Positions 1,909 to 11,161 of a DNA stretch of 13,666 nt are shown here, piece by piece. A program made the translations under genes and the position numbers. The notes under the pieces were generated by a model. It ran no database searches. It saw nothing but the letters and a program-made list of their open reading frames with translations, and was not told where the DNA came from. The stretch comes from Caldifarciminota bacterium. GTDB lineage: Bacteria > Hydrothermota > Hydrothermia > UBA1063 > CAJXJZ01. Location: the NCBI GenBank assembly GCA_027033555.1, contig JALVLE010000151.1, positions 1 through 13,666 of the forward strand. The letters are read 5' to 3'. The first letter of the stretch is position 1; the number at the start of each line of letters is the position of its first letter.

Positions 1909-2969
1909 AAATTGCCTTTCCATTACTTTCCATTGAAAATCATGGAGGTACCCGTGACATTATTGAAGTTGCCAATTATCTTGCCAAAAAAACACATAAG
2001 GTCATTCTGTATGCACCGTTTGATAGAATTAATACTCATTATTACGTCAGTAATAAGGTAAAAATACAACCAGTCCCTACAAGTGGCAAAACGCGATGGG
2101 GACAATTTAAAACCCTCTTGTGGTACATATTAAACTTAAAAAATTCTGACCTCTATGTAGCTAATTTTTTCCCGACTTTCTATCCAATTTTTATAAGGAG
2201 CCTAACTAAACACAGTAAATTTGTGTATTTCGTACAGGATATAGAATACAAATTCGTAAAACTTCCTCTGAACATTTTTGCGCTCTTCACCTATATTCTC
2301 CCATCAAAAAAGATCGCACTTTCTCACTTCATCAAACAAAAAATCGGTGACAGAGATACAGAGGTAGCATTACCAGGAGTGAGCGAGACTTTCCTGAAAT
2401 TACCATTAAAAAAACGGGATTTCAACAACAATCCCCTTGTTATTGGTCATATAATCAGAAAAGAACCTCTTAAAAATTCCAAACTCTTTTTAAAGGCTAT
2501 ACCTGAGCTTTTAAAAATGGGGTATAGGGTAAGAGTAGTGGGAGACAGTGCCACAGTTATACATCTAAAAAAACTGTATCCCAAAGAGCTCACAGCCCTT
2601 CCCTATGCTGATTCAAATACTCTGTGCACAGAATTTTACGATAAAATTGACATATTTGTTCATACCTCTATTACAGAAGGTTTCGGTCTTCCTCCACTTG
2701 AGGCCATGGCAAGGGGATGTGCTGTTCTACTAACCCATTCAGGAGGTGTAAATGAGTATGCAAAAGACAAAATAAACGCTATATTCATTGACAAAGAAGA
2801 CCCTGCTGATATGGTATTGAAAATCGCAGGGCTTGACAGGAAAAGGGAACTTCTGAAAAAACTTTCAGATAATGCAATAAAAACAGCACATTTATATCCA
2901 ATAAGAAATTTAGGTCCCGCTTTTGAGAAAGCTCTTATAAAACTAAAGTTACTTACTAAGTCTAAGTGA
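1905..2969 (+). CDS. Glycosyltransferase family 4 (GT-B fold)
   Basis: Retaining glycosyltransferase transferring a sugar from a nucleotide donor to a surface-glycan or lipid-linked acceptor, probably at the inner face of the cytoplasmic membrane. The 354-aa product has an N-terminal acceptor domain with a glycine loop (HGGTRD, 13-18) and a C-terminal donor domain carrying the GT4 EX7E signature: E258-GFGLPPL-E266, followed by AMARGCAVL and SGGVNEY. Donor and acceptor cannot be told from sequence. It starts at ATG 1905, overlapping the stop of the epimerase as ATGA. ManNAc made by its neighbour is a plausible donor sugar, but that is inference from position only. Its stop codon lies inside the 3' end of the convergent cyclase gene, and no terminator is seen between them. 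Confidence 0.85.
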   Translation: MKIAFPLLSIENHGGTRDIIEVANYLAKKTHKVILYAPFDRINTHYYVSNKVKIQPVPTSGKTRWGQFKTLLWYILNLKNSDLYVANFFPTFYPIFIRSLTKHSKFVYFVQDIEYKFVKLPLNIFALFTYILPSKKIALSHFIKQKIGDRDTEVALPGVSETFLKLPLKKRDFNNNPLVIGHIIRKEPLKNSKLFLKAIPELLKMGYRVRVVGDSATVIHLKKLYPKELTALPYADSNTLCTEFYDKIDIFVHTSITEGFGLPPLEAMARGCAVLLTHSGGVNEYAKDKINAIFIDKEDPADMVLKIAGLDRKRELLKKLSDNAIKTAHLYPIRNLGPAFEKALIKLKLLTKSK

Positions 2970-5900
2970 CATTTGCCAAAACAAATCTCTTTGCAACTAC
3001 ATTTTTAAGCCTGTTTGCCAGCTCGTTGATATTTTCAAATCTATGGTTATCAAAATATTCAAAAAATTTTAAGAAACCCTTACGAAGATAGGGATATTTT
3101 TCTATTTTCTTCCGTATCTCAACAACTTCTTCAAAATCTTTCTCAACTAAAGCAAAAGCAAGTAGAAATGAAAATACAGCTCCAGCATCATGGAGCATAT
3201 TGTTATCCAGAAATATCCCAAGTGCATCTTTTAAATATTTTCTGGACCTTTTCTTATCTCCTAAAAAGGCCAGAGCTTCACCGTGTAATGCAAGAGACCT
3301 GGCTTGAGCCCATTTGTAATTTATAACTGCCAGATACCTCTCCACTTTTCTTAATTCCCGTAATATCCTTTCATAGTCCCCTTTTATCAAAAGAACATAA
3401 ATGAGATTCAATTCTGCAAGAAGATATGGATAATACAACCGATGTCGCAAAGCAATAAGAGATGCTTTTTGATAATAGGCTATTGATGTGTCAATTTCCT
3501 TTTTCCATAAGTAAATATTTGCCATGTTTATGTATACTCCAACCCTATTCCACACACTTTCATCGCTATGCCTTATTTTTTTAAGTATAAACCTGTATGT
3601 CGTCAGTGCCTCATCAAGCCTTTCCAGAGAAGCAAGAGCTGTAGCCTTATTTGCAGCAAGTGAAAAAAGTTGACGGGTAATCCTCTTTTTTAATGCAGTT
3701 TTTAATCCCCTGTTGAAATATTCCAGAGCTATATGGGGCTTGTTCGTATTCAAATAATAAAGCCCCATTATATTTTGATAAACAACATACAGATCAGGGG
3801 AGCGTATTTCATAAACTCCGTCCCTCTCTATTTTTTTAACAAGTTGTTTAACTTTATCCAATTGGTTCATATCCAGTAAGAGATAGGCCTCTACAAGCCA
3901 CTTTCTGAGCTCCTCTTCCTGGGTCTTCACTTTAGCTTTTTCCAACATAGAAAAAGCCCTGTGATAAAACCCAACCTTGGAATATAAATTACTTAACCCT
4001 TCAATCAGTTTAAACTCGGGCTCCCCCATTATGGAAAGTTTCATCTCCAAAAGCTCAATTCTCCGGTAAAAATCATTTTTGTAAGCCCTGTCAGAAAGGG
4101 CTAAATCTATATAATTAAATGCCTTTTCCTTAAGATCAGCCTTTGTGTAGTGTTTCGCTATGTTATAAAGAGGCTCTTCAATTTGTTCTTGATGCTTTTC
4201 CAGAAACTCAGCTATTTTTTTATGGATATTTTTTCGCTCATGTTTAAGCATAGATTCATATATAGCTTCCCTGTATGTTTGCTGCTCAAAGACGATATTT
4301 TCTCCATCTAAACGAAGAATTCCAGAAGATATTGCTTTCTCTGGTAATCCTGAGGGAAGTCCCACATACTTCTTGTATTTGTTAAAAAGTCCCGCAGGTA
4401 CACTATAACCAAAAACAGAAAGATGTTTCACATCTTCCTGCTCTCTTTCAGGTAACTCATCAAAGGACAAAATAAATATATCATGCATACCTTTAGGAAT
4501 TTTTACTGCTCCTCTATGAATCCATAAACCATTACGAACTTTCAGCATTTCATTGGCTAACAAATATGCCAGAGTGTGTCTCAAAACAAGCGGATTTCCA
4601 GATGTCTTCTCTTTCATAAGTCTTATAAGAAGGCTATGTGCTCTTCCTCCAAGAACCGTGCTGATCAGTTTTCCTATTGCATCTTCGGTAAAAGGCTCTA
4701 ATTTTAAAAGCATTCCACTTTCACGAGCAAGATTCACAACCTGATCATCAAATTTTCTACCTGTAATAACAAATAAAATCTCCCCTTTCCTCCTAAATAA
4801 TTTCTTTATCACTTTTCTGCTGGCTTCATCAACAAGATGCCAATCATCAATGGCCAGAATAATAGGTTTATCATGGCTCTTATTTCTTATCAAAGCTTCA
4901 AAAATTGCAGGAAACGTGGTCTCAATAGCTTTTACATCCACAAACTCTCCTTTAATAAATTTCTCCACAAAATCCTGAATATTTCCTGGTAGCCTGTTTT
5001 TTTCATAAAACATTCTTACAAGCCCTTTTAAACAGCCATAAGAGCCCTTAACTGCATACTCTTGAGCACTACACTTAAAAATTTCATAACTCTTTATTTC
5101 TTTTAATACTTTTTCAAGAAGCACAGTTTTACCAATACCTGCAACACCTTCAATAAGTATTAATCCTCTTCTATGTAAGGATACAAAAGTTTTTATTTTG
5201 TTTATTTCATCTTTCCTGTTTACAAACACACGGAAGGCGAGCCTTGCCGGATTTTTACCTTTAAGAACATACGTCCAAAGAGCACGCCTTCTTCCCCTTA
5301 CTTTTACATTTCCATGGAACTTAAACAGATATGCATTCTCAAAATACCTGGTATCCGTGCTGAATAGAATTTCTCCTCTTATAGCATGCTCCATAAGTCT
5401 TGCGGCAATGTTCACACTCTCCCCCAGAGTTGTAAATCTCTTAAACCTTTTACTTCCTATAAATCCACTCACGGCTCTGCCGTTGGCTATACCTATGCTG
5501 AGTTTGTTTTGATAGGCGTCTTTAAGCATAAGTGCCAGATCAAGCGCACTTTTTATCCGATACCTCGTGGTTTCAGGAGCACCAGCGGTAAAAAACAGAT
5601 GATTACCTTTATCAATCATCAAAATAGAATCAAGGTATATTTTGTAAGCGGTTATATAAGGGTAAAAATGCTCCTGTAGCTCTCCGATAAAGGTAAAAAA
5701 ATCTTTTTCATCCCCATAGAATTTTAGAAACATACATGTTATGTTTCTCCACTCTCCTCTAAATCCTGCTTTTTTGTATGCAGCTACTTTCCTGTTGTAC
5801 AGGCTATTTTTTTGTAAAGCTGTCAATTTTCTGGAGTATGATGGATATTTGGTGCTAATATATGCCCCCTTTGTAAGGAACTCTCCTGGCCTGGCTCTCT

Positions 5901-6354
5901 TCTCAAGTGATGCGGCTTCGTTTAGCGCTATTCCGTAAAATATAAAATCTCTCCTTTCCGGAAAATCCACGGGTATTATATAGAAATCGCCCATAGTAAT
6001 GCCACCTTTTACTTTTAAACTCCTTTCTTTCAGCAGAAGATGCATCATGTGAGCTGCTCTTTTTGCTTTTTTCTGAGTAAGGTCATTTTTGAAATATACA
6101 AGCATTGCATCTCCCGCTATAAAGGCAATTTCCCCTCCCTCCTCCTCTACAGCATCGTGAGCAAGTGTAAATACCCTTTCTATTCTGTCAAGTAATTCCT
6201 CAAACTTTTCCTCACCCCGAAATTGTGCCTCTTCAACTAGGGACGTAAAGCTTTTTATATCTACGAACATAAGACTCCCCGAAAGCTTTAGAGGCTTTTC
6301 TATTCCATCCTTGAAAATACTCAGCACATCCTTTGAAAATGAAGAGAAAGGCAT
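2962..6354 (-). CDS. Tandem class III adenylate cyclase with NTPase and TPR region, soluble-adenylyl-cyclase-like
   Basis: Predicted cytosolic cAMP-forming regulator of about 1,130 aa (numbered from ATG 6354). Domains: cyclase 1 (~25-165), cyclase 2 (~200-365), P-loop NTPase (Walker A GVAGIGKT 403-410; Walker B IILAIDD 498-504), then a long helical TPR-like region (~730-1090). Cyclase 1 keeps both metal aspartates (FVDIKSF D32; AGDAML D82) but has Ser149 where the transition-state Arg is expected (LNEAAS). Cyclase 2 lacks the metal Asp (CMFLKF) but keeps Lys249 (IDKGN), Thr308 (TTLGE), Asn315 and Arg319 (VNIAAR). The halves complement each other into one site, as in animal ADCY10, which has the same domain order. 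No membrane segment follows from this start. The frame is open back to ATG 6444, but that extension translates the upstream terminator hairpin, so I reject it. No Shine-Dalgarno precedes 6354. Confidence 0.85.
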   Translation of the reverse strand: MPFSSFSKDVLSIFKDGIEKPLKLSGSLMFVDIKSFTSLVEEAQFRGEEKFEELLDRIERVFTLAHDAVEEEGGEIAFIAGDAMLVYFKNDLTQKKAKRAAHMMHLLLKERSLKVKGGITMGDFYIIPVDFPERRDFIFYGIALNEAASLEKRARPGEFLTKGAYISTKYPSYSRKLTALQKNSLYNRKVAAYKKAGFRGEWRNITCMFLKFYGDEKDFFTFIGELQEHFYPYITAYKIYLDSILMIDKGNHLFFTAGAPETTRYRIKSALDLALMLKDAYQNKLSIGIANGRAVSGFIGSKRFKRFTTLGESVNIAARLMEHAIRGEILFSTDTRYFENAYLFKFHGNVKVRGRRRALWTYVLKGKNPARLAFRVFVNRKDEINKIKTFVSLHRRGLILIEGVAGIGKTVLLEKVLKEIKSYEIFKCSAQEYAVKGSYGCLKGLVRMFYEKNRLPGNIQDFVEKFIKGEFVDVKAIETTFPAIFEALIRNKSHDKPIILAIDDWHLVDEASRKVIKKLFRRKGEILFVITGRKFDDQVVNLARESGMLLKLEPFTEDAIGKLISTVLGGRAHSLLIRLMKEKTSGNPLVLRHTLAYLLANEMLKVRNGLWIHRGAVKIPKGMHDIFILSFDELPEREQEDVKHLSVFGYSVPAGLFNKYKKYVGLPSGLPEKAISSGILRLDGENIVFEQQTYREAIYESMLKHERKNIHKKIAEFLEKHQEQIEEPLYNIAKHYTKADLKEKAFNYIDLALSDRAYKNDFYRRIELLEMKLSIMGEPEFKLIEGLSNLYSKVGFYHRAFSMLEKAKVKTQEEELRKWLVEAYLLLDMNQLDKVKQLVKKIERDGVYEIRSPDLYVVYQNIMGLYYLNTNKPHIALEYFNRGLKTALKKRITRQLFSLAANKATALASLERLDEALTTYRFILKKIRHSDESVWNRVGVYINMANIYLWKKEIDTSIAYYQKASLIALRHRLYYPYLLAELNLIYVLLIKGDYERILRELRKVERYLAVINYKWAQARSLALHGEALAFLGDKKRSRKYLKDALGIFLDNNMLHDAGAVFSFLLAFALVEKDFEEVVEIRKKIEKYPYLRKGFLKFFEYFDNHRFENINELANRLKNVVAKRFVLANVT

Positions 6355-6358
6355 GTGT

Positions 6359-6389
6359 ATAATATACGAGAGTGATTGCGAAATTAAAA
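6359..6389 (-). promoter_or_regulatory. Possible promoter of the cyclase gene, giving a leaderless or near-leaderless mRNA
   Basis: Reading leftward, TATATT (6366-6361) overlaps TATTAT (6364-6359); each matches five of six bases of the -10 consensus. A poor -35 (TTTTAA, 6389-6384) sits 17 bp upstream of the first. A start 7 nt after TATATT falls on the A of the ATG at 6354, and no ribosome-binding site is present between the -10 and the ATG. The placement just after the strong terminator fits a separate transcription unit. Confidence 0.4.
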
Positions 6390-6396
6390 GGAGTGT

Positions 6397-6442
6397 AAAG
6401 AAAAGACGAGCGGAAGGGGCGTGTGCGCCCCTTCCGCTCGTC
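6397..6442 (-). terminator. Strong intrinsic terminator of the nadA-to-HD operon
   Basis: A perfect 17-bp GC-rich inverted repeat (arms 6405-6421 and 6426-6442, 4-nt loop) is followed on the minus strand by TTTTCTTT (6404-6397). It begins 14 nt after the stop codon of the HD-domain gene. No T-tract follows on the plus strand, so it is directional. It separates the metabolic operon from the cyclase gene. Confidence 0.92.
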
Positions 6443-6456
6443 AACGATTTATGGAA

Positions 6457-6993
6457 TCAGTCTTTGAAAGGTTCAAAGTTGACAAAATCTGCGTGGTGTA
6501 TAATCCAGGATTCAGTTATGCGTTTCGTAAAATCTCCTTCCTTGGAATGCGCCACTATAATATGCACAACCTCAAGAGGAAGTCCCACTTCACTTGCAAT
6601 TATCCCTCCTGATATAGGATGGCGTAGTCTTTTTCCGTGATAGCTTTTTACCACTTTTCCGTTTTCGTCTCTTTCAAATTCCAGCACCTTTCCTACATCA
6701 TGCAAAATGGCTCCAGATATAACCCAATCCATATTAACAGGCTTTTTCTCCCCGTAATTATCTATGAAACTCTCTGCTATCTTTATGGCTGTGTTCGTTA
6801 CTGCATTTGTATGTTTTAAAAGGCTTATATCTGTTTCTTCTAAAAGGAGGGTAAAGGGTATTTTATCAAGGTCATCTATTTCAAATGGAGAAAGTTCAAG
6901 GGCGCGTTCCCAGCATGTGATGGTTTTCTCTCTTAAGTCATCGTCTTTAATGTCTTTAATCCTTGGGAAGAGCTCCACTATCTTATTCCTCAT
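6457..6993 (-). CDS. HD-domain metal-dependent phosphohydrolase-like protein
   Basis: A 178-aa soluble protein of the HD/HDIG superfamily, whose members are mostly divalent-metal phosphohydrolases or phosphodiesterases; its substrate is unknown. Likely metal ligands are visible: His61 (LLKHTNA), His98-Asp99 (ILHDVGK), and distal Asp169 (HHADFVNF), with further conserved-looking histidines at 125 (RHPISGG) and 149 (VAHSKEGD). There is no attached sensor or RelA-type domain. The start is ATG 6993: GGGGAGG lies six bases upstream, and this ATG overlaps the 3' end of the lyase gene by 11 bp. An upstream in-frame ATG at 7023 would add ten residues inside the lyase gene and has no better site. It is the last gene of the operon, so it may act on a metabolite or nucleotide tied to citryl-CoA/NAD metabolism, which is inference. 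Confidence 0.8.
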   Translation of the reverse strand: MRNKIVELFPRIKDIKDDDLREKTITCWERALELSPFEIDDLDKIPFTLLLEETDISLLKHTNAVTNTAIKIAESFIDNYGEKKPVNMDWVISGAILHDVGKVLEFERDENGKVVKSYHGKRLRHPISGGIIASEVGLPLEVVHIIVAHSKEGDFTKRITESWIIHHADFVNFEPFKD

Positions 6994-7759
6994 CGTACAC
7001 CTCCCCGATATATTCATGGTCAACGGGGTCTATTTTCCTCATAGGTTTCATCTCTGTCTGCTCTTCGTATATGTGAGCGATAAGTCCCGGCGTCCTTGCA
7101 ATTATAAAAAACGCGTTTCCAAGCTCTGGGGGGAATCCCATCTCGCACAGCACAGCTGCTATGGCACCATCAACATTTATGGGAAGGTCTTTACCTTTTA
7201 TCTTTTTAATGGCTTCTTTTATGGAGACTGCAGCCTTCACATAGTCGCCATAAAAGCCTGTTTCTTTCGCTATTTCAAACAGTCTCTGTGTCCGTGGATC
7301 ATTTGTGTGATACCTGTGTCCAAAACCTGAAAGCCTCTTCTTTGCATCTAAAGATGCTTTTGTAAATTTATACGCTGCCTCCTCAATGCTTATATTCTCG
7401 TTTTTTGAAATATTTATCACGTCAATATAATGATGCATTGCTTGTTCAATGGCACCACCATGCCACTTATAAATGGCGAGTATTCCACCGGCAAGGGCTG
7501 CATTTAAAGGGCTTCCTGTTGAGGCAATTGTCCTTGCTGCGAGTGTTGATGGAGGTGTTGCACCATGGTCAATGGATGATACGAATATAGCATCTATCAT
7601 TTTACCGGTATTTTCATCAGGAAGTTCTCCTTTTAAAATGAGATAAATTGCCTGTGGAAATGTTATTTTTCCCATTAACTTATCTATTCTATGTCCCCTT
7701 ACATAGATTCTATTGGGCTCAATTTTTGTAATTTTAGTGGTCCAGTGATTTTCTCCCAT
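6983..7759 (-). CDS. ccl: Citryl-CoA lyase (short citrate-synthase family protein)
   Basis: Predicted to cleave citryl-CoA into acetyl-CoA and oxaloacetate, or, run the other way, to make citrate. At 258 aa it is far shorter than citrate synthase (about 370-430 aa) and matches the size of Hydrogenobacter citryl-CoA lyase and the C-terminal part of ATP-citrate lyase. Catalytic positions are kept: His100 in KWHGGAIEQA (His274 of pig citrate synthase), His148 in GFGHRYHTNDPR (His320), Asp197 in INVDGAI (Asp375; ATP-citrate lyase has NVDGLIG), and the CoA/oxaloacetate segment ARTPGLIAH (221-229). AGGAGG precedes the ATG. It follows the ligase alpha gene by 11 nt. A short citrate synthase working in the oxidative direction cannot be excluded, but its pairing with an ACL-like ligase favours the lyase. 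Confidence 0.8.
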   Translation of the reverse strand: MGENHWTTKITKIEPNRIYVRGHRIDKLMGKITFPQAIYLILKGELPDENTGKMIDAIFVSSIDHGATPPSTLAARTIASTGSPLNAALAGGILAIYKWHGGAIEQAMHHYIDVINISKNENISIEEAAYKFTKASLDAKKRLSGFGHRYHTNDPRTQRLFEIAKETGFYGDYVKAAVSIKEAIKKIKGKDLPINVDGAIAAVLCEMGFPPELGNAFFIIARTPGLIAHIYEEQTEMKPMRKIDPVDHEYIGEVYDEE

Positions 7760-7770
7760 TTTTAAACCTC

Positions 7771-8667
7771 CTATTTTCCAAGCACCTTCTTAACTGCCTC
7801 TGGAATATCTGTGATTTTATCTACAACTATGGCACCTGCCTCCTTTAAAGCATTCACCTTGCTTTCCCATGAACCTCTATTACCTTCAACTATGGCTCCA
7901 GCATGGGAAAAACGGGTACCTTTCTGAGCAGCCTTTCCACCAATAAAAGCAATAAGTGGCTTTGTAACTTCTTTGTTTTTCATTAGCTCAGCAACTCTCT
8001 CTTCCTGTGATGTGCCTATTTCTCCAAACATCACTATTACTTCTGTCTGCGGGTCTTTTTCAAAGAGTTTAACAATTTCAGGATGGGGCATTCCCACAAC
8101 TGCGTCTCCTCCCACATGAACAATCGTGGACTGTCCGAACCCTGCTTTTGAAATATAATAGGATATGGCACTTGTGATACCTCCACTTCTTGATGTAACA
8201 CCCACAGGACCTGGTTTAAACCATTCCCTTGCTGATTTTGCCCTTCCGCCTATCATGCCAAGAACCGCTTTTCCTGGACTCAATATGCCCAGTGTGTTGG
8301 GACCTATGAACTTAGCACCTTTTTCCTTTGCATAATCATAGATCTCCAGCACATCATGAATGGGAACCCTGTCTGGCACTAAAAGGAGCAACTTGACACC
8401 CGCTTCAATCGCCTCAAGGGCTGCTTCCTTGACAAGGGGTGCAGGAACAAAAATCGCAGATGCATCTATTGGTCCATGCTTTTCCCATGCCTCAAACACT
8501 GTGTCATATACGGGAATGCCTTCTACCTCCTGTCCTCCCTTACCGGGAGTAACTCCAGCCACCACCTTTGTGCCATACTCCTTCATAAGGCGGGTTCTTG
8601 TTCTTCCCTCTCTTCCAGTAATACCCTGTACAAGAACCCTTGTGTTTTCATCTATTAAAATAGCCAT
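7771..8667 (-). CDS. CoA ligase alpha subunit, likely citryl-CoA synthetase small subunit (SucD family)
   Basis: A 298-aa SucD-family subunit that carries the phospho-histidine and binds CoA. Visible: Rossmann CoA-binding start (VQGITGREGRT, 13-23), VTPGKGG (39-45), GPNTLG (122-127), SRSGGITS (159-166), GGDAVVG (186-192), Glu216 in MFGEIGT, and the phosphorylated His255 in FSHAGAIV. SRSGG is the ATP-citrate-lyase form; E. coli SucD has SRSGTLTYE. The usual EGIP loop is changed to PDRVP (98-102). Both changes fit a citrate-type substrate better than succinate, but this is motif reading only. It starts 1 nt after the beta-subunit stop, with GGGGGAG five bases before the ATG inside the beta gene, so the two subunits are probably made in step. 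Alternative: succinyl-CoA or malate-CoA ligase alpha. Confidence 0.82.
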   Translation of the reverse strand: MAILIDENTRVLVQGITGREGRTRTRLMKEYGTKVVAGVTPGKGGQEVEGIPVYDTVFEAWEKHGPIDASAIFVPAPLVKEAALEAIEAGVKLLLLVPDRVPIHDVLEIYDYAKEKGAKFIGPNTLGILSPGKAVLGMIGGRAKSAREWFKPGPVGVTSRSGGITSAISYYISKAGFGQSTIVHVGGDAVVGMPHPEIVKLFEKDPQTEVIVMFGEIGTSQEERVAELMKNKEVTKPLIAFIGGKAAQKGTRFSHAGAIVEGNRGSWESKVNALKEAGAIVVDKITDIPEAVKKVLGK

Positions 8668-8668
8668 T

Positions 8669-10231
8669 TTACTCCCCCTGCTCTTTAATAATTTTCTCTC
8701 TGTACTCTTTTAGTCCTGGAATTGGAAGATGTATATGAAGTGCGCCTTTTCCATGAAAACGGCAGGCAATCTCACAGGCAAGACACTCTGTGCATTTACC
8801 CTTTCGCGCCTCTTCAGGATCAATTTTCAGAACAGGTTTTCCATCCTTTAACTCAATAACATCGTACTGACAAGCTTCAACACAGGGTTTTTCTTCACAT
8901 CTTTCGCACACCTCGTGGTCTATGTAAATGGCACCTGTCATTGTTTCTATTTTGTATTCAGTGCCCTTTGGTTCAAATTCTTTGTGAGGCTTTACCCTGT
9001 GTAATTTTCTTCCATTCTCCTCAACCAATTCCTTAAGCCTCTGTGCACAGAAATCTGGAGAATCGTCTTTTCCATAGGCCTCAATTTTAACTGGGAGGTC
9101 TTTTAAATAAGTGTGGATTATCTCTATTGCCACCTCCTCATAGTTTCCACCGAGTCTCAAAACCGCAGGAATATCAATTTCATCCTCTAAAAACGCCTTC
9201 ACAAATCCTCGTGCTGAATGGAACTGTTCCTGTGATGCCACTCCTGAACCTGATGCAAAGTACCCCACCACATTTGGCTGTGAGAGAATAATCTTGGCTG
9301 CCCTATAGACCTTTGAAGCAGGAGGATTTCCGCTTGTATCTGTGAAATTTGCTATTTTAAAGCCTGCGTTTAACACAGCATCCATACTCATCATTGAGCC
9401 ACCACCACCTGCACCATGAAAGGCGATATGTTTTCCATCAGGTGGTACATCGGTTACCATCTGTATGAAGTAAAATGTTCCCCTGTAATCGTTCTTTTCA
9501 ACGTTCCACGCAATTTTTTCAAGCTCTGTGGCAGGTCTTGGGAACTCTCTCGCTATTTCTATACCAAGGTCTGGATGTCTGTACACACCGTAGTCGTCAA
9601 TAACTATGTGAGCGTCAAGTGCCACTATTTCTCCATCCTCTGTAAGTGCAAGGGGGTTTGTTTCAAGACTTCTTGCATCGTATTCTTTCATGGCTTTGTA
9701 AAGTTTTGCCAGTGTTGTGCCTATTTTGTTTAGTATTTTCCCCCTTATTCCAGCCTTTCTTGCCACCTCCCTTGCCTGGTAGGAGTAGAGCCCTCTACCG
9801 TAGTCAATATGCATCTTGGCAACCTTATCAGGATGCTCTTTTGCTATTTCCTCTATCCCTGACCCACCTATGCTTGAAAAGATAAGTACAGGCTGAGCCG
9901 TTGAGTCGTCAATAATGAATCCGGCAAAGTATTCTGCTTTTATGGGAAGACGTTTTTCTATAAGAACTGTGTCAACAGTAAACTGTCCCCACTTCATCCC
10001 GAGGAATTTTTTAGCATTCTCCCTTACGCACTCTGCATCTTCACAGAAGGCAATACCGCCCTTTCCCTTTCTACCTGTTTCCCATATCTGAACCTTTATT
10101 ACCACAGGGTACCCTATTTCATCCGCTATCCTGACTGCTTCATCAGCAGTCTTTGCAATACCACCGTCGGGAATTTTTACCCCGTATTTTTTCAGTATTT
10201 CTTTTGACTGGTACTCAAATAGTTTTGCCAT
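8669..10231 (-). CDS. CoA ligase beta subunit (ATP-grasp, ACL/SucC-like) fused to a 2[4Fe-4S] ferredoxin domain
   Basis: A 520-aa protein; ordinary SucC or CcsA subunits are about 390-430 aa. Residues ~1-225 are the ATP-grasp domain, with the metal-binding region LETNPLAL (Asn192) and ALDAH (Asp206). Residues ~240-385 are the CoA-ligase domain, with GAGGGGSMMSMDA (273-285). It has SGSGVASQEQ where SucC has its NIFGGI loop, and RLGGNYEE (359-366), close to ATP-citrate lyase RRGGPNYQE. Residues ~430-505 are an extra ferredoxin-type domain: C442-x2-C445-x4-C450-x3-C454 and C480-x2-C483-x2-C486-x3-C490, enough for two 4Fe-4S clusters. Predicted role: activation of citrate to citryl-CoA using ATP, with alpha. 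The clusters may be structural, redox-sensing or a docking site for a ferredoxin-linked partner; the sequence does not decide. It begins 15 nt after nadA, with GGGGA upstream. Confidence 0.85.
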   Translation of the reverse strand: MAKLFEYQSKEILKKYGVKIPDGGIAKTADEAVRIADEIGYPVVIKVQIWETGRKGKGGIAFCEDAECVRENAKKFLGMKWGQFTVDTVLIEKRLPIKAEYFAGFIIDDSTAQPVLIFSSIGGSGIEEIAKEHPDKVAKMHIDYGRGLYSYQAREVARKAGIRGKILNKIGTTLAKLYKAMKEYDARSLETNPLALTEDGEIVALDAHIVIDDYGVYRHPDLGIEIAREFPRPATELEKIAWNVEKNDYRGTFYFIQMVTDVPPDGKHIAFHGAGGGGSMMSMDAVLNAGFKIANFTDTSGNPPASKVYRAAKIILSQPNVVGYFASGSGVASQEQFHSARGFVKAFLEDEIDIPAVLRLGGNYEEVAIEIIHTYLKDLPVKIEAYGKDDSPDFCAQRLKELVEENGRKLHRVKPHKEFEPKGTEYKIETMTGAIYIDHEVCERCEEKPCVEACQYDVIELKDGKPVLKIDPEEARKGKCTECLACEIACRFHGKGALHIHLPIPGLKEYREKIIKEQGE

Positions 10232-10246
10232 AATCCATCCCCTTTT

Positions 10247-11161
10247 TCATGATATTGCAATCATTTTTAAGATGGCGTCTTTTGCCTTTTTGATTATCTC
10301 CTCAGGAAGTGTTATCTCATACACCTCATCCTTCAGACTCCTGTAAATATTTTCAAGTGTTATGGTTTTCATGCCCCTGCAAATGGCATTTTTACTTGCA
10401 GGATAAAAGGTTTTATCCGGAAATTCCCTTTTTAGTCTTGTTGTCATATCTATCTCTGTTGCAATGATGAATTCCTTTGCATTCACTTTCTTTATAACCT
10501 CTATCATCCCATTTGTTGATGCCACATAATCTGCAATTTCCAGCACCTCTCTTCTTGCCTCAGGATGTGCAATTACAATGGCGTCTTTGTGCTTTTCCTT
10601 CTGAAGTATAACATCTTTTACTGTGATAAGTTCATCGTGAACGTAACAGTAACCGTCAAAAAGTATGATTTCTTTCTCAGGAACCTGTTTTTGAACGTAG
10701 TTTGCCAGATTTCTGTCAGGGACAAAGATAATTTCCTTTGCCTCAAGGCTTCTTACAACATTTGCTGCATTTCTTGAGGTACAGCATATGTCACACTCTG
10801 CCTTTACATCTGCATACGTATTTACGTAGCATACAACCTGTGCCTCAGGATGCTCTTTCTTCAATCTTATAACATCTTCCCGCCTCACCATATCAGCCAT
10901 CTCACATGTGGCATCAGGATGGGGAAGTAGCACTTTCTTTTCTGGAGACAGGATTTTTGCAGTTTCTGCCATGAATTTCACGCCTGCAAACACAATAATA
11001 TCTTTTTCTATGTTCTGTGCTTTCCTTGAGAGGTCAAGAGAGTCTCCTATAATATCTGCAACTTCCTGGATTTCCTCTCTCTGGTAGTTGTGTGCAAGAA
11101 TTACCGCATTCTTTTCTCTCTTTAATCTCTGTATTTCCTCAATAATTTCTTTTTGGGACAT
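10247..11161 (-). CDS. nadA: Quinolinate synthase
   Basis: Condenses iminoaspartate with dihydroxyacetone phosphate to quinolinate in de novo NAD synthesis. The 304-aa product fits the compact type known from Thermotoga. The three Cys expected to ligate the catalytic [4Fe-4S] cluster are Cys86 (DATCEMADM), Cys172 (DGYCYVH) and Cys261 (NAICRGMKT), with spacing matching the family. Other marks are AHNYQREEIQ (23-32), GDSLDLS (39-45), FAGVKFMAETAK (58-69), CCTSRNA (126-132), VPDRNLA and AHPEARREV. GGAGG precedes the ATG. It is first in a five-gene operon; nadB and nadC are not in the window. Aspartate, the precursor of iminoaspartate, derives from oxaloacetate, which the downstream lyase would release, so a metabolic link is conceivable but inferred. 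Confidence 0.95.
   Translation of the reverse strand: MSQKEIIEEIQRLKREKNAVILAHNYQREEIQEVADIIGDSLDLSRKAQNIEKDIIVFAGVKFMAETAKILSPEKKVLLPHPDATCEMADMVRREDVIRLKKEHPEAQVVCYVNTYADVKAECDICCTSRNAANVVRSLEAKEIIFVPDRNLANYVQKQVPEKEIILFDGYCYVHDELITVKDVILQKEKHKDAIVIAHPEARREVLEIADYVASTNGMIEVIKKVNAKEFIIATEIDMTTRLKREFPDKTFYPASKNAICRGMKTITLENIYRSLKDEVYEITLPEEIIKKAKDAILKMIAIS

Follow-up and report, generated by a model that had tools for sequence, protein, structure and literature searches.

The ligase and its citrate operon

The window, meaning the whole 13,666-nucleotide stretch of DNA that was analysed, comes from an assembly of 1.96 Mb in 433 contigs (92.4% complete), and all of its features described here lie on the reverse strand. 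An open reading frame of 520 aa at positions 8669..10231, exactly where an earlier note on this DNA had placed a ligase, encodes a predicted CcsA-type citryl-CoA synthetase large subunit with a C-terminal ferredoxin-like domain, as judged from the ORF call, Pfam, PDB matches and relatives. The protein comprises an ATP-grasp_2 domain (residues 3-195; 9647..10225; Pfam PF08442, 172.3 bits), a citrate-binding/CoA-ligase domain (residues 269-389; 9065..9427; PF16114 Citrate_bind, 28.9 bits with a cut-off of 26.8), a variable linker (residues 406-425; 8957..9016; mean majority-residue share 0.37) and the ferredoxin-like domain.

The ligase scores below both SucC models that were searched, with 250.2 bits for TIGR01016 (cut-off 375.55) and 248.7 bits for NF001913 (cut-off 370), and falls short of the ACL ATP-grasp model PF24948 (21.8 bits, cut-off 83). 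The CcsA body can be aligned over residues 3-403 (phmmer, 2.1e-41), positions 3-421 of the family profile match CcsA 2-424, and the best PDB match for residues 250-420 is CcsA (E 2.3e-13). For the whole protein, the PDB sequence matches listed are SucC (3ufx first), Hydrogenobacter CcsA (6hxq) and ACL chains, and in none of these does the aligned stretch reach the ferredoxin domain. The reading in the earlier note, a large subunit of a citryl-CoA ligase fused to a ferredoxin-like domain of probable dicluster type, is thus supported, with the domain absent from the listed SucC, CcsA and ACL structures. The predicted model of the whole protein is confident throughout (mean pLDDT 93.0, pTM 0.86).

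The next two genes encode the partners of CcsA. These are ccsB, a CoA-binding/phosphohistidine SucD-like subunit of 298 aa (7771..8667; PF02629, PF00549), and ccl, a citryl-CoA lyase of 258 aa (6983..7759; NF004869, 289.8 bits with a cut-off of 212). The ligase had been said to hold a complete CoA-ligase body; the ATP-grasp and the citrate-type ligase domain are indeed present, whereas the CoA-binding half is the separate gene at 7771-8667. The fourth gene of the operon encodes an HD/HDIG-domain protein (6457..7023; PF01966, 38.6 bits), and overlaps the 3' end of ccl. On these grounds the ligase is assigned as the large subunit of a citryl-CoA synthetase of the CcsA type, and the operon as a three-part ATP-citrate lyase (CcsA, CcsB and CCL) with an added domain. 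Succinate is an unlikely substrate, given the SucC scores and the CCL partner; the same genome has a further gene, at another place, for a SucC-like protein (G000:C278).

The partner genes recur in relatives. The motif [SG]HAG[AS], which we take to be functional in CcsB, is present in 66 of 67 near-complete ccsB relatives, and the presumed functional motifs of CCL are found in near-complete ccl relatives as HGGA (53/54), [NP][VI]D[GA] (54/54) and G[FM]GH[RP] (47/54). In the 44 loci where 5 kb or more is available downstream of the ligase, ccsB was found in 42, ccl in 37 and the HD gene in 35; L084 and L094 have room downstream, yet no ccsB adjoins the ligase. Where 6.5 kb was available (n=39), members of the aconitase cluster were found in 24 loci and of the Iso_dh cluster in 23, both families being named from Pfam on one representative each. 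Pfam scans were confined to representatives of the neighbouring genes; a full list of operon neighbours runs to 212. Fumarate-reductase-like and fumarase genes lie beside the ligase in some loci (e.g., in Desulfobacterota L087, and by cluster in L082, flavoprotein, iron-sulfur protein and fumarase-type subunits are encoded upstream). The citrate context first suggested from the window holds up: CCL is present, and in many relatives the ligase has aconitase-family and isocitrate-dehydrogenase genes as neighbours. This gene context (ccsB, ccl, aconitase and isocitrate dehydrogenase) makes citrate a well-supported predicted substrate of the fused form.

Among 45 genomes that carry the fused gene, 30 encode a full-length citrate synthase (a match from profile position 1, which leaves out a 21-352 match in G076), 41 a CCL-type protein and 27 both. 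The 15 carriers without a full-length citrate synthase include the fragmented genome of the window, and some of these genomes are incomplete.

Comparison with known ligases

The closest counterpart in design is CcsA (Hydrogenobacter thermophilus, PDB 6hxq chain B; Aquifex aq_1306), which shares the ATP-grasp and citrate-type ligase domains, the GGGGS, ANFTD and GNPPA motifs (6hxq_B) and the CcsB and CCL partners. In contrast to the window protein, 6hxq_B has only 429 aa and no room for a ferredoxin-like domain. Aquifex CcsA is given as 48.3 kDa in the accessible text of PMC10052474.

AclA/AclB and human ACLY have the same overall reaction and the same modules, and match only the ligase body of the window protein. 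AclA unites CcsB-type and CCL-type modules in one chain, as do single ORFs for CcsB and CCL in two relatives (L079 and L091). We know of no ferredoxin domain in the solved ACLs. SucC has the same fold (the best structural match in the PDB is 3ufx, with a TM of 0.89 on target length), and differs from the window ligase in the TIGR01016 score reported above.

The ferredoxin-like domain

The domain spans residues 426-512 (8696..8956) and was recognised from a sub-threshold Pfam match to Fer4_9 at residues 442-491 (23.1 bits, cut-off 27) and from AlphaFold, which models the isolated domain with a mean pLDDT of 93.6; in the whole-protein model the blocks there reach 92-96. Both cysteine patterns described in the earlier note were found. 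The first motif, CxxCx4CxxxC, comprises C442, C445, C450 and C454 (8870..8908). The second, CxxCxxCxxxC, comprises C480, C483, C486 and C490 (8762..8794) and lies inside the strongly conserved GKCTECLACE. A conserved tail, LPIPGLKEYR (8699..8728), is similar in alignments of fused and stand-alone forms of the domain.

In dicluster ferredoxins, each cluster takes three Cys of one motif and the last Cys of the other. From this usual topology, together with the joint loss of Cys in the reduced clade described below, cluster I is predicted to be held by C442, C445, C450 and C490, and cluster II by C454, C480, C483 and C486.

No Foldseek match to the isolated domain was found at E 0.001 or better. 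The 50 matches listed include archaeal RNA polymerase subunit D, HdrA, hydrogenase and ferredoxin chains (TMq 0.29-0.54), with subunit D as the top, though weak, match (E 3.5e-3, TMq 0.48). Subunit D belongs to an unrelated, non-redox enzyme that also has a ferredoxin-like iron-sulfur domain, the clusters of which are lost in some lineages.

Conservation is uneven along the domain. Across 65 aligned rows, the majority-residue share at non-Cys positions is 0.77 in the cluster II loop, 0.74 in the tail, 0.47 in the cluster I loop and 0.37 in the linker, and in the ligase body the corresponding values are 0.82 (CoA-ligase region) and 0.69 (ATP-grasp region). By this measure the constrained part of the domain is the cluster II loop, with the tail, and not the cluster I loop. 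Distances between domains and between bodies of the fused proteins are correlated (Mantel r 0.73, with 0/999 permutations as high).

Distribution and conservation of the fusion

A species-genome collection was scanned with two short peptide patterns, which yielded 338 relatives, and the analysis was carried out on the best 80. The full eight-Cys motif is present in 77 of the best 80 of 338, a count that leans to the fused form because these are the relatives most like the query. The exceptions are L053 and L093, where the ORF ends inside the domain, and L080, with a single Cys-to-Ser change. The best 80 of 338 come from more than ten phyla according to their record labels (WOR-3/Hydrothermota, Aminicenantes, Marinimicrobia, Chloroflexota, KSB1, Caldithrix, Zixibacteria, Planctomycetota, Syntrophobacterales and others), so that the check on taxonomic spread proposed in the earlier note showed the fusion to recur; many of these loci are from Aminicenantes and hence are not independent.

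All eight Cys are invariant in 65 of 65 rows of alignment A2, which is partly a matter of selection because the rows were drawn from full-motif proteins. A2 consists of the window protein and 64 loci, out of 76 in which the ORF is intact from where the match begins; the twelve that were dropped (L022, L034, L044, L048, L055, L056, L064, L067, L069, L074, L087 and L090) are mostly close to rows that were kept, and L053, L072, L080 and L093 lie outside the 76.

The gene was also searched for within single taxa. In the class of the window, the fused gene was found in 10 of 40 genomes, with nine full-length proteins, all of which keep the eight Cys, and one cut by a contig end; the remaining matches at E 1e-60 are SucC-like (at most 256 bits, as against more than 1000 for the nine fused proteins). 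The Marinimicrobia phylum has the gene in 6 of 245 genomes, all six with the full motif, and the Chloroflexota sample in 3 of 350 (two with the full motif, one cut by a contig end). In the phylum of the Aminicenantes genome G057, presumably Acidobacteriota in GTDB, the gene was found in 27 of 347 genomes, two of them cut by contig ends, and the tails of part of these were read. In the Thermodesulfobacteriota (Desulfobacterota) sample, 17 of 297 genomes have the gene, with split forms in 17 and the fused form in one. The fusion is thus widely scattered and uncommon in the sampled phyla. The ferredoxin-like part is genuine and ancient, and has been retained in many poorly known groups of bacteria.

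A split form in Desulfobacterota

The Desulfobacterota sample contains 18 places (L114-L131) where the ligase, of about 415 aa, has no fused domain (in L114 it is broken into two ORFs). In all 18, a separate gene for a domain of about 97 aa lies within about 225 bases downstream of the ligase and before ccsB; 17 of these were called as ORFs, and that of L131 was found by tblastn, with 76 residues up to a run of N. A 404-aa ORF in L131 that joins the ferredoxin to CcsB was rejected as an artefact, since the run of N lies between both genes. The stand-alone domain keeps the Cys of cluster I and lacks C480 in 18 of 18, so cluster II there would have at most three Cys ligands. TECLACE and the P-x-x-G-L tail are kept in the aligned stand-alone forms, apart from L120, which has ECVSCE.

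The split ligases also differ in a block of the acid pocket, where all 17 proteins compared have A, N and L in place of S279, S333 and R359, and all 17 also differ at S327, S329 and G361. All 76 fused ligases, and all 13 proteins of the class of genome G967 (see below), retain R359, which we take to be the counterpart of an Arg that contacts citrate in ACLY. Within stretches of 5.6-11.6 kb around the split loci, blastp at E 1e-4 gave no match to the ccl or HD protein of the window, nor to the aconitase or isocitrate-dehydrogenase query. The changed pocket, together with the lack of a ccl match nearby, makes it probable that the split-form ligase acts on another 2-hydroxy acid, with its ferredoxin partner retained.

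The operon of L114-L131 reads ligase, stand-alone ferredoxin, CcsB, HpcH/HpaI lyase, formyl-transferase-like protein and GlcD-like oxidase. These assignments come from Pfam in L119 (HpcH/HpaI lyase, formyl transferase, GlcD-like FAD oxidase) and partly in L121 (HpcH/HpaI lyase and FAD oxidase), and the other split loci were judged by gene length; the divergent locus L120 has MmgE/PrpD genes. This operon perhaps represents an undescribed 2-hydroxyacid-CoA pathway of the glycolate or malyl-CoA type. Terms for a malyl-CoA/glyoxylate link are absent from the accessible parts of the Syntrophobotulus genome paper (PMC3156405), and those of PMC8092247 mention malyl-CoA and no ligase-ferredoxin gene.

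Loss of the predicted cluster I ligands in one clade

The class of G967, one class of the Aminicenantes phylum, has the gene in 13 of 162 genomes, and six of these are intact. In the other seven, C442, C445 and C450 are gone, and in six of the seven C490 as well, while C454, C480, C483 and C486 are all retained (7/7). Apart from the one retained C490, lost and kept Cys fit the ligand sets expected for a dicluster domain. The seven reduced members form one clade (support 100/99), which points to one loss event: good evidence on how the ligands are grouped, weak evidence on how often such loss occurs. Of the reduced loci, three were read; all three have HD close to the ligase, and two have ccl there.

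In the tree (36 fused, 7 reduced, 17 split and 6 SucC rows, L114 being left out for its broken ORF), the fused form surrounds both the split and the reduced variants, with SucC, in a tree that does not include CcsA or AclB, as the only outgroup and sole basis for the root. Oxygen was considered as a cause of the loss of cluster I. COX1-family proteins are encoded in 3 of 3 tested reduced-domain genomes and 5 of 10 split genomes, and also in 14 of 51 carriers outside these groups, which argues against oxygen as a sufficient cause.

Proposed role of the domain

Activation of an acid with CoA and ATP needs no electrons, so the domain is probably a built-in control or assembly element. The split form is informative here, given that the domain persists as a separate gene next to a ligase with another acid pocket and no ccl match nearby; by this comparison it is the ligase that the domain goes with, and neither citrate nor the reductive TCA cycle. 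The adjoining gene in 18 of 18 split ligases and the correlation between body and domain both argue for an integral component. The loss of cluster I ligands in one clade suggests, moreover, that a two-cluster electron wire is dispensable. Because no electrons are required, the module tracks the ligase in two gene contexts and with two acid pockets, and one clade does without a two-cluster wire, we favour a reading in which the domain is an integral part of the ligase that serves as a cluster-dependent docking and activation module, i.e., a switch that reports Fe-S integrity. We give this a rough probability of 0.45.

Under the proposed mechanism, CcsA and CcsB would convert citrate, CoA and ATP to citryl-CoA, which CCL would split into acetyl-CoA and oxaloacetate, or the reverse. 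Cluster II (Cys 454, 480, 483 and 486, in GKCTECLACE) and the LPIPGL tail would hold the domain on the ligase, and the ligase would be competent only with an intact cluster II, which would make it sensitive to oxygen, iron or redox state; cluster I would be the outer, dispensable cluster. We infer that the domain binds clusters, which of them faces the ligase, and that cluster state switches the ligase. A precedent for control of this kind is PurF (amidophosphoribosyltransferase) of Bacillus subtilis, a non-redox enzyme that is inactivated by oxidation of its 4Fe-4S cluster. Several observations speak against the mechanism. Its weak point is the stand-alone form, which alters cluster II (C480 missing) and not cluster I. 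Oxygen accounts poorly for the pattern, to judge from the COX1 distribution, the reduced clade is a single event, and the isolated domain has no Foldseek match at E 0.001 or better.

The strongest alternative is redox gating, in which electrons from reduced ferredoxin or another carrier pass via cluster I to cluster II and turn the ligase on or off, which would set the direction of citrate metabolism and avoid a futile cycle with citrate synthase. The conservation of all eight Cys in 77 of the best 80 of 338 relatives is in its favour. So is the finding that 27 of 45 carriers encode citrate synthase at full length alongside a CCL-type protein, since uncontrolled operation there could burn ATP, a motive for some switch. 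Nevertheless, cluster I ligands are lost in a clade that still has HD (3/3 loci) and ccl (2/3), and the sequences of this clade speak against an obligatory two-cluster wire; 15 of 45 carriers, some of them incomplete genomes, also show no full-length citrate synthase. We consider redox gating a live but rather unlikely alternative.

In a purely structural role, the clusters would only hold a small domain together and so aid assembly of the ligase/lyase module, with no control. Variants that have lost one ligand set, or have one set reduced to three Cys, do survive, as would be expected in this case, and the top, though weak, fold match to subunit D of archaeal RNA polymerase points the same way. 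On the other hand, a domain that merely stabilises would have no need to survive as a gene of its own that keeps the TECLACE and PxPGL-like motifs, an argument tempered by the fact that a separate subunit can be structural too. We regard a purely structural role as improbable.

The earlier note had also raised docking to the ferredoxin-dependent oxidoreductases of the reductive TCA cycle; the domain might then also act as an electron relay. Such enzymes (POR_N) are encoded in 26 of 26 tested carriers, and aconitase-family, isocitrate-dehydrogenase, fumarase and fumarate-reductase-like genes stand beside the ligase in some loci. The check on korAB/porAB co-occurrence proved uninformative, however, since each of the 34 genomes tested encodes POR_N proteins, among them all 8 class relatives that lack the fused gene. 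In G000-G003 and G017, the genomes with every match listed, no POR_N gene lies on the ligase contig (two of these contigs are shorter than 14 kb), and the split form keeps the module despite its changed acid pocket and the lack of a ccl match nearby. The proposal finds no support in these genomes, and we consider it very doubtful. Lastly, an assembly artefact or chance fusion of neighbouring genes, conceivable for a window from an assembly of 433 contigs, is refuted by the same fusion in three other members of the genus and in relatives from many separate assemblies.

Relevance to citrate metabolism

ATP-citrate lyase decides between the making and the cleavage of citrate, and is a widely used genomic marker of the reductive TCA cycle. 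The form with an Fe-S module occurs in Aminicenantes, WOR-3, Chloroflexota, Marinimicrobia, KSB1, Desulfobacterota and further groups. As the window protein scores below the NCBI SucC cut-offs, annotation may overlook this form or give it a wrong name. A search of the open literature, the coverage of which leaves out most subscription journals, found no description of a ligase-ferredoxin fusion, and none is given in the accessible parts of PMC12137691, PMC8092247, PMC3578206, PMC11237513 and PMC10052474. The accessible text of PMC3578206 describes the ATP-citrate lyase of Nitrospina as having very low similarity to known ones.

We tentatively suggest, as a possibility that leans towards the doubtful, that the fused proteins form an undescribed, widespread class of ATP-citrate lyase with a sister 2-hydroxyacid:CoA ligase in Desulfobacterota, and that in both an on-board Fe-S module gates ATP-dependent formation of acyl-CoA. 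If this is true, mostly uncultured bacteria would set the direction of citrate metabolism by the redox state or the integrity of a cluster. Should the module control activity, iron-sulfur state would be tied, unexpectedly, to carbon flow through an enzyme without redox chemistry. The natural variants, with the module full, separate or with one ligand set lost, make its role directly testable.

Additional genes near the ligase

Several further genes were observed around the operon. Downstream of it in the window (2962-6444) lies a gene for a 1160-aa protein with an adenylate/guanylate cyclase-like domain, an AAA/STAND NTPase and TPR repeats. The gene nadA (quinolinate synthase; 10247-11161) immediately precedes the ligase gene in the window and in its three genus mates, and in none of the other loci compared; NadA is itself a 4Fe-4S enzyme. 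An MmgE/PrpD protein, possibly a citrate or 2-methylcitrate dehydratase, is encoded near the citrate operon in L097, L141 and L143 (Pfam) and, by cluster only, in L089 and L095; in L141 it stands beside aconitase. A class II aldolase/adducin-type gene follows ccsB in L029 (PF00596) and, as members of the same cluster, in L034, L060 and L077. The genomes of L029 and L060 have a CCL-type protein on another contig, so this gene has not simply replaced the lyase. Finally, two pairs of ETF-like genes precede the fused ligase in one Chloroflexota locus (L100:2127-7927), of which the scanned pair has an alpha subunit with a ferredoxin N-terminus and the second was assigned by cluster.
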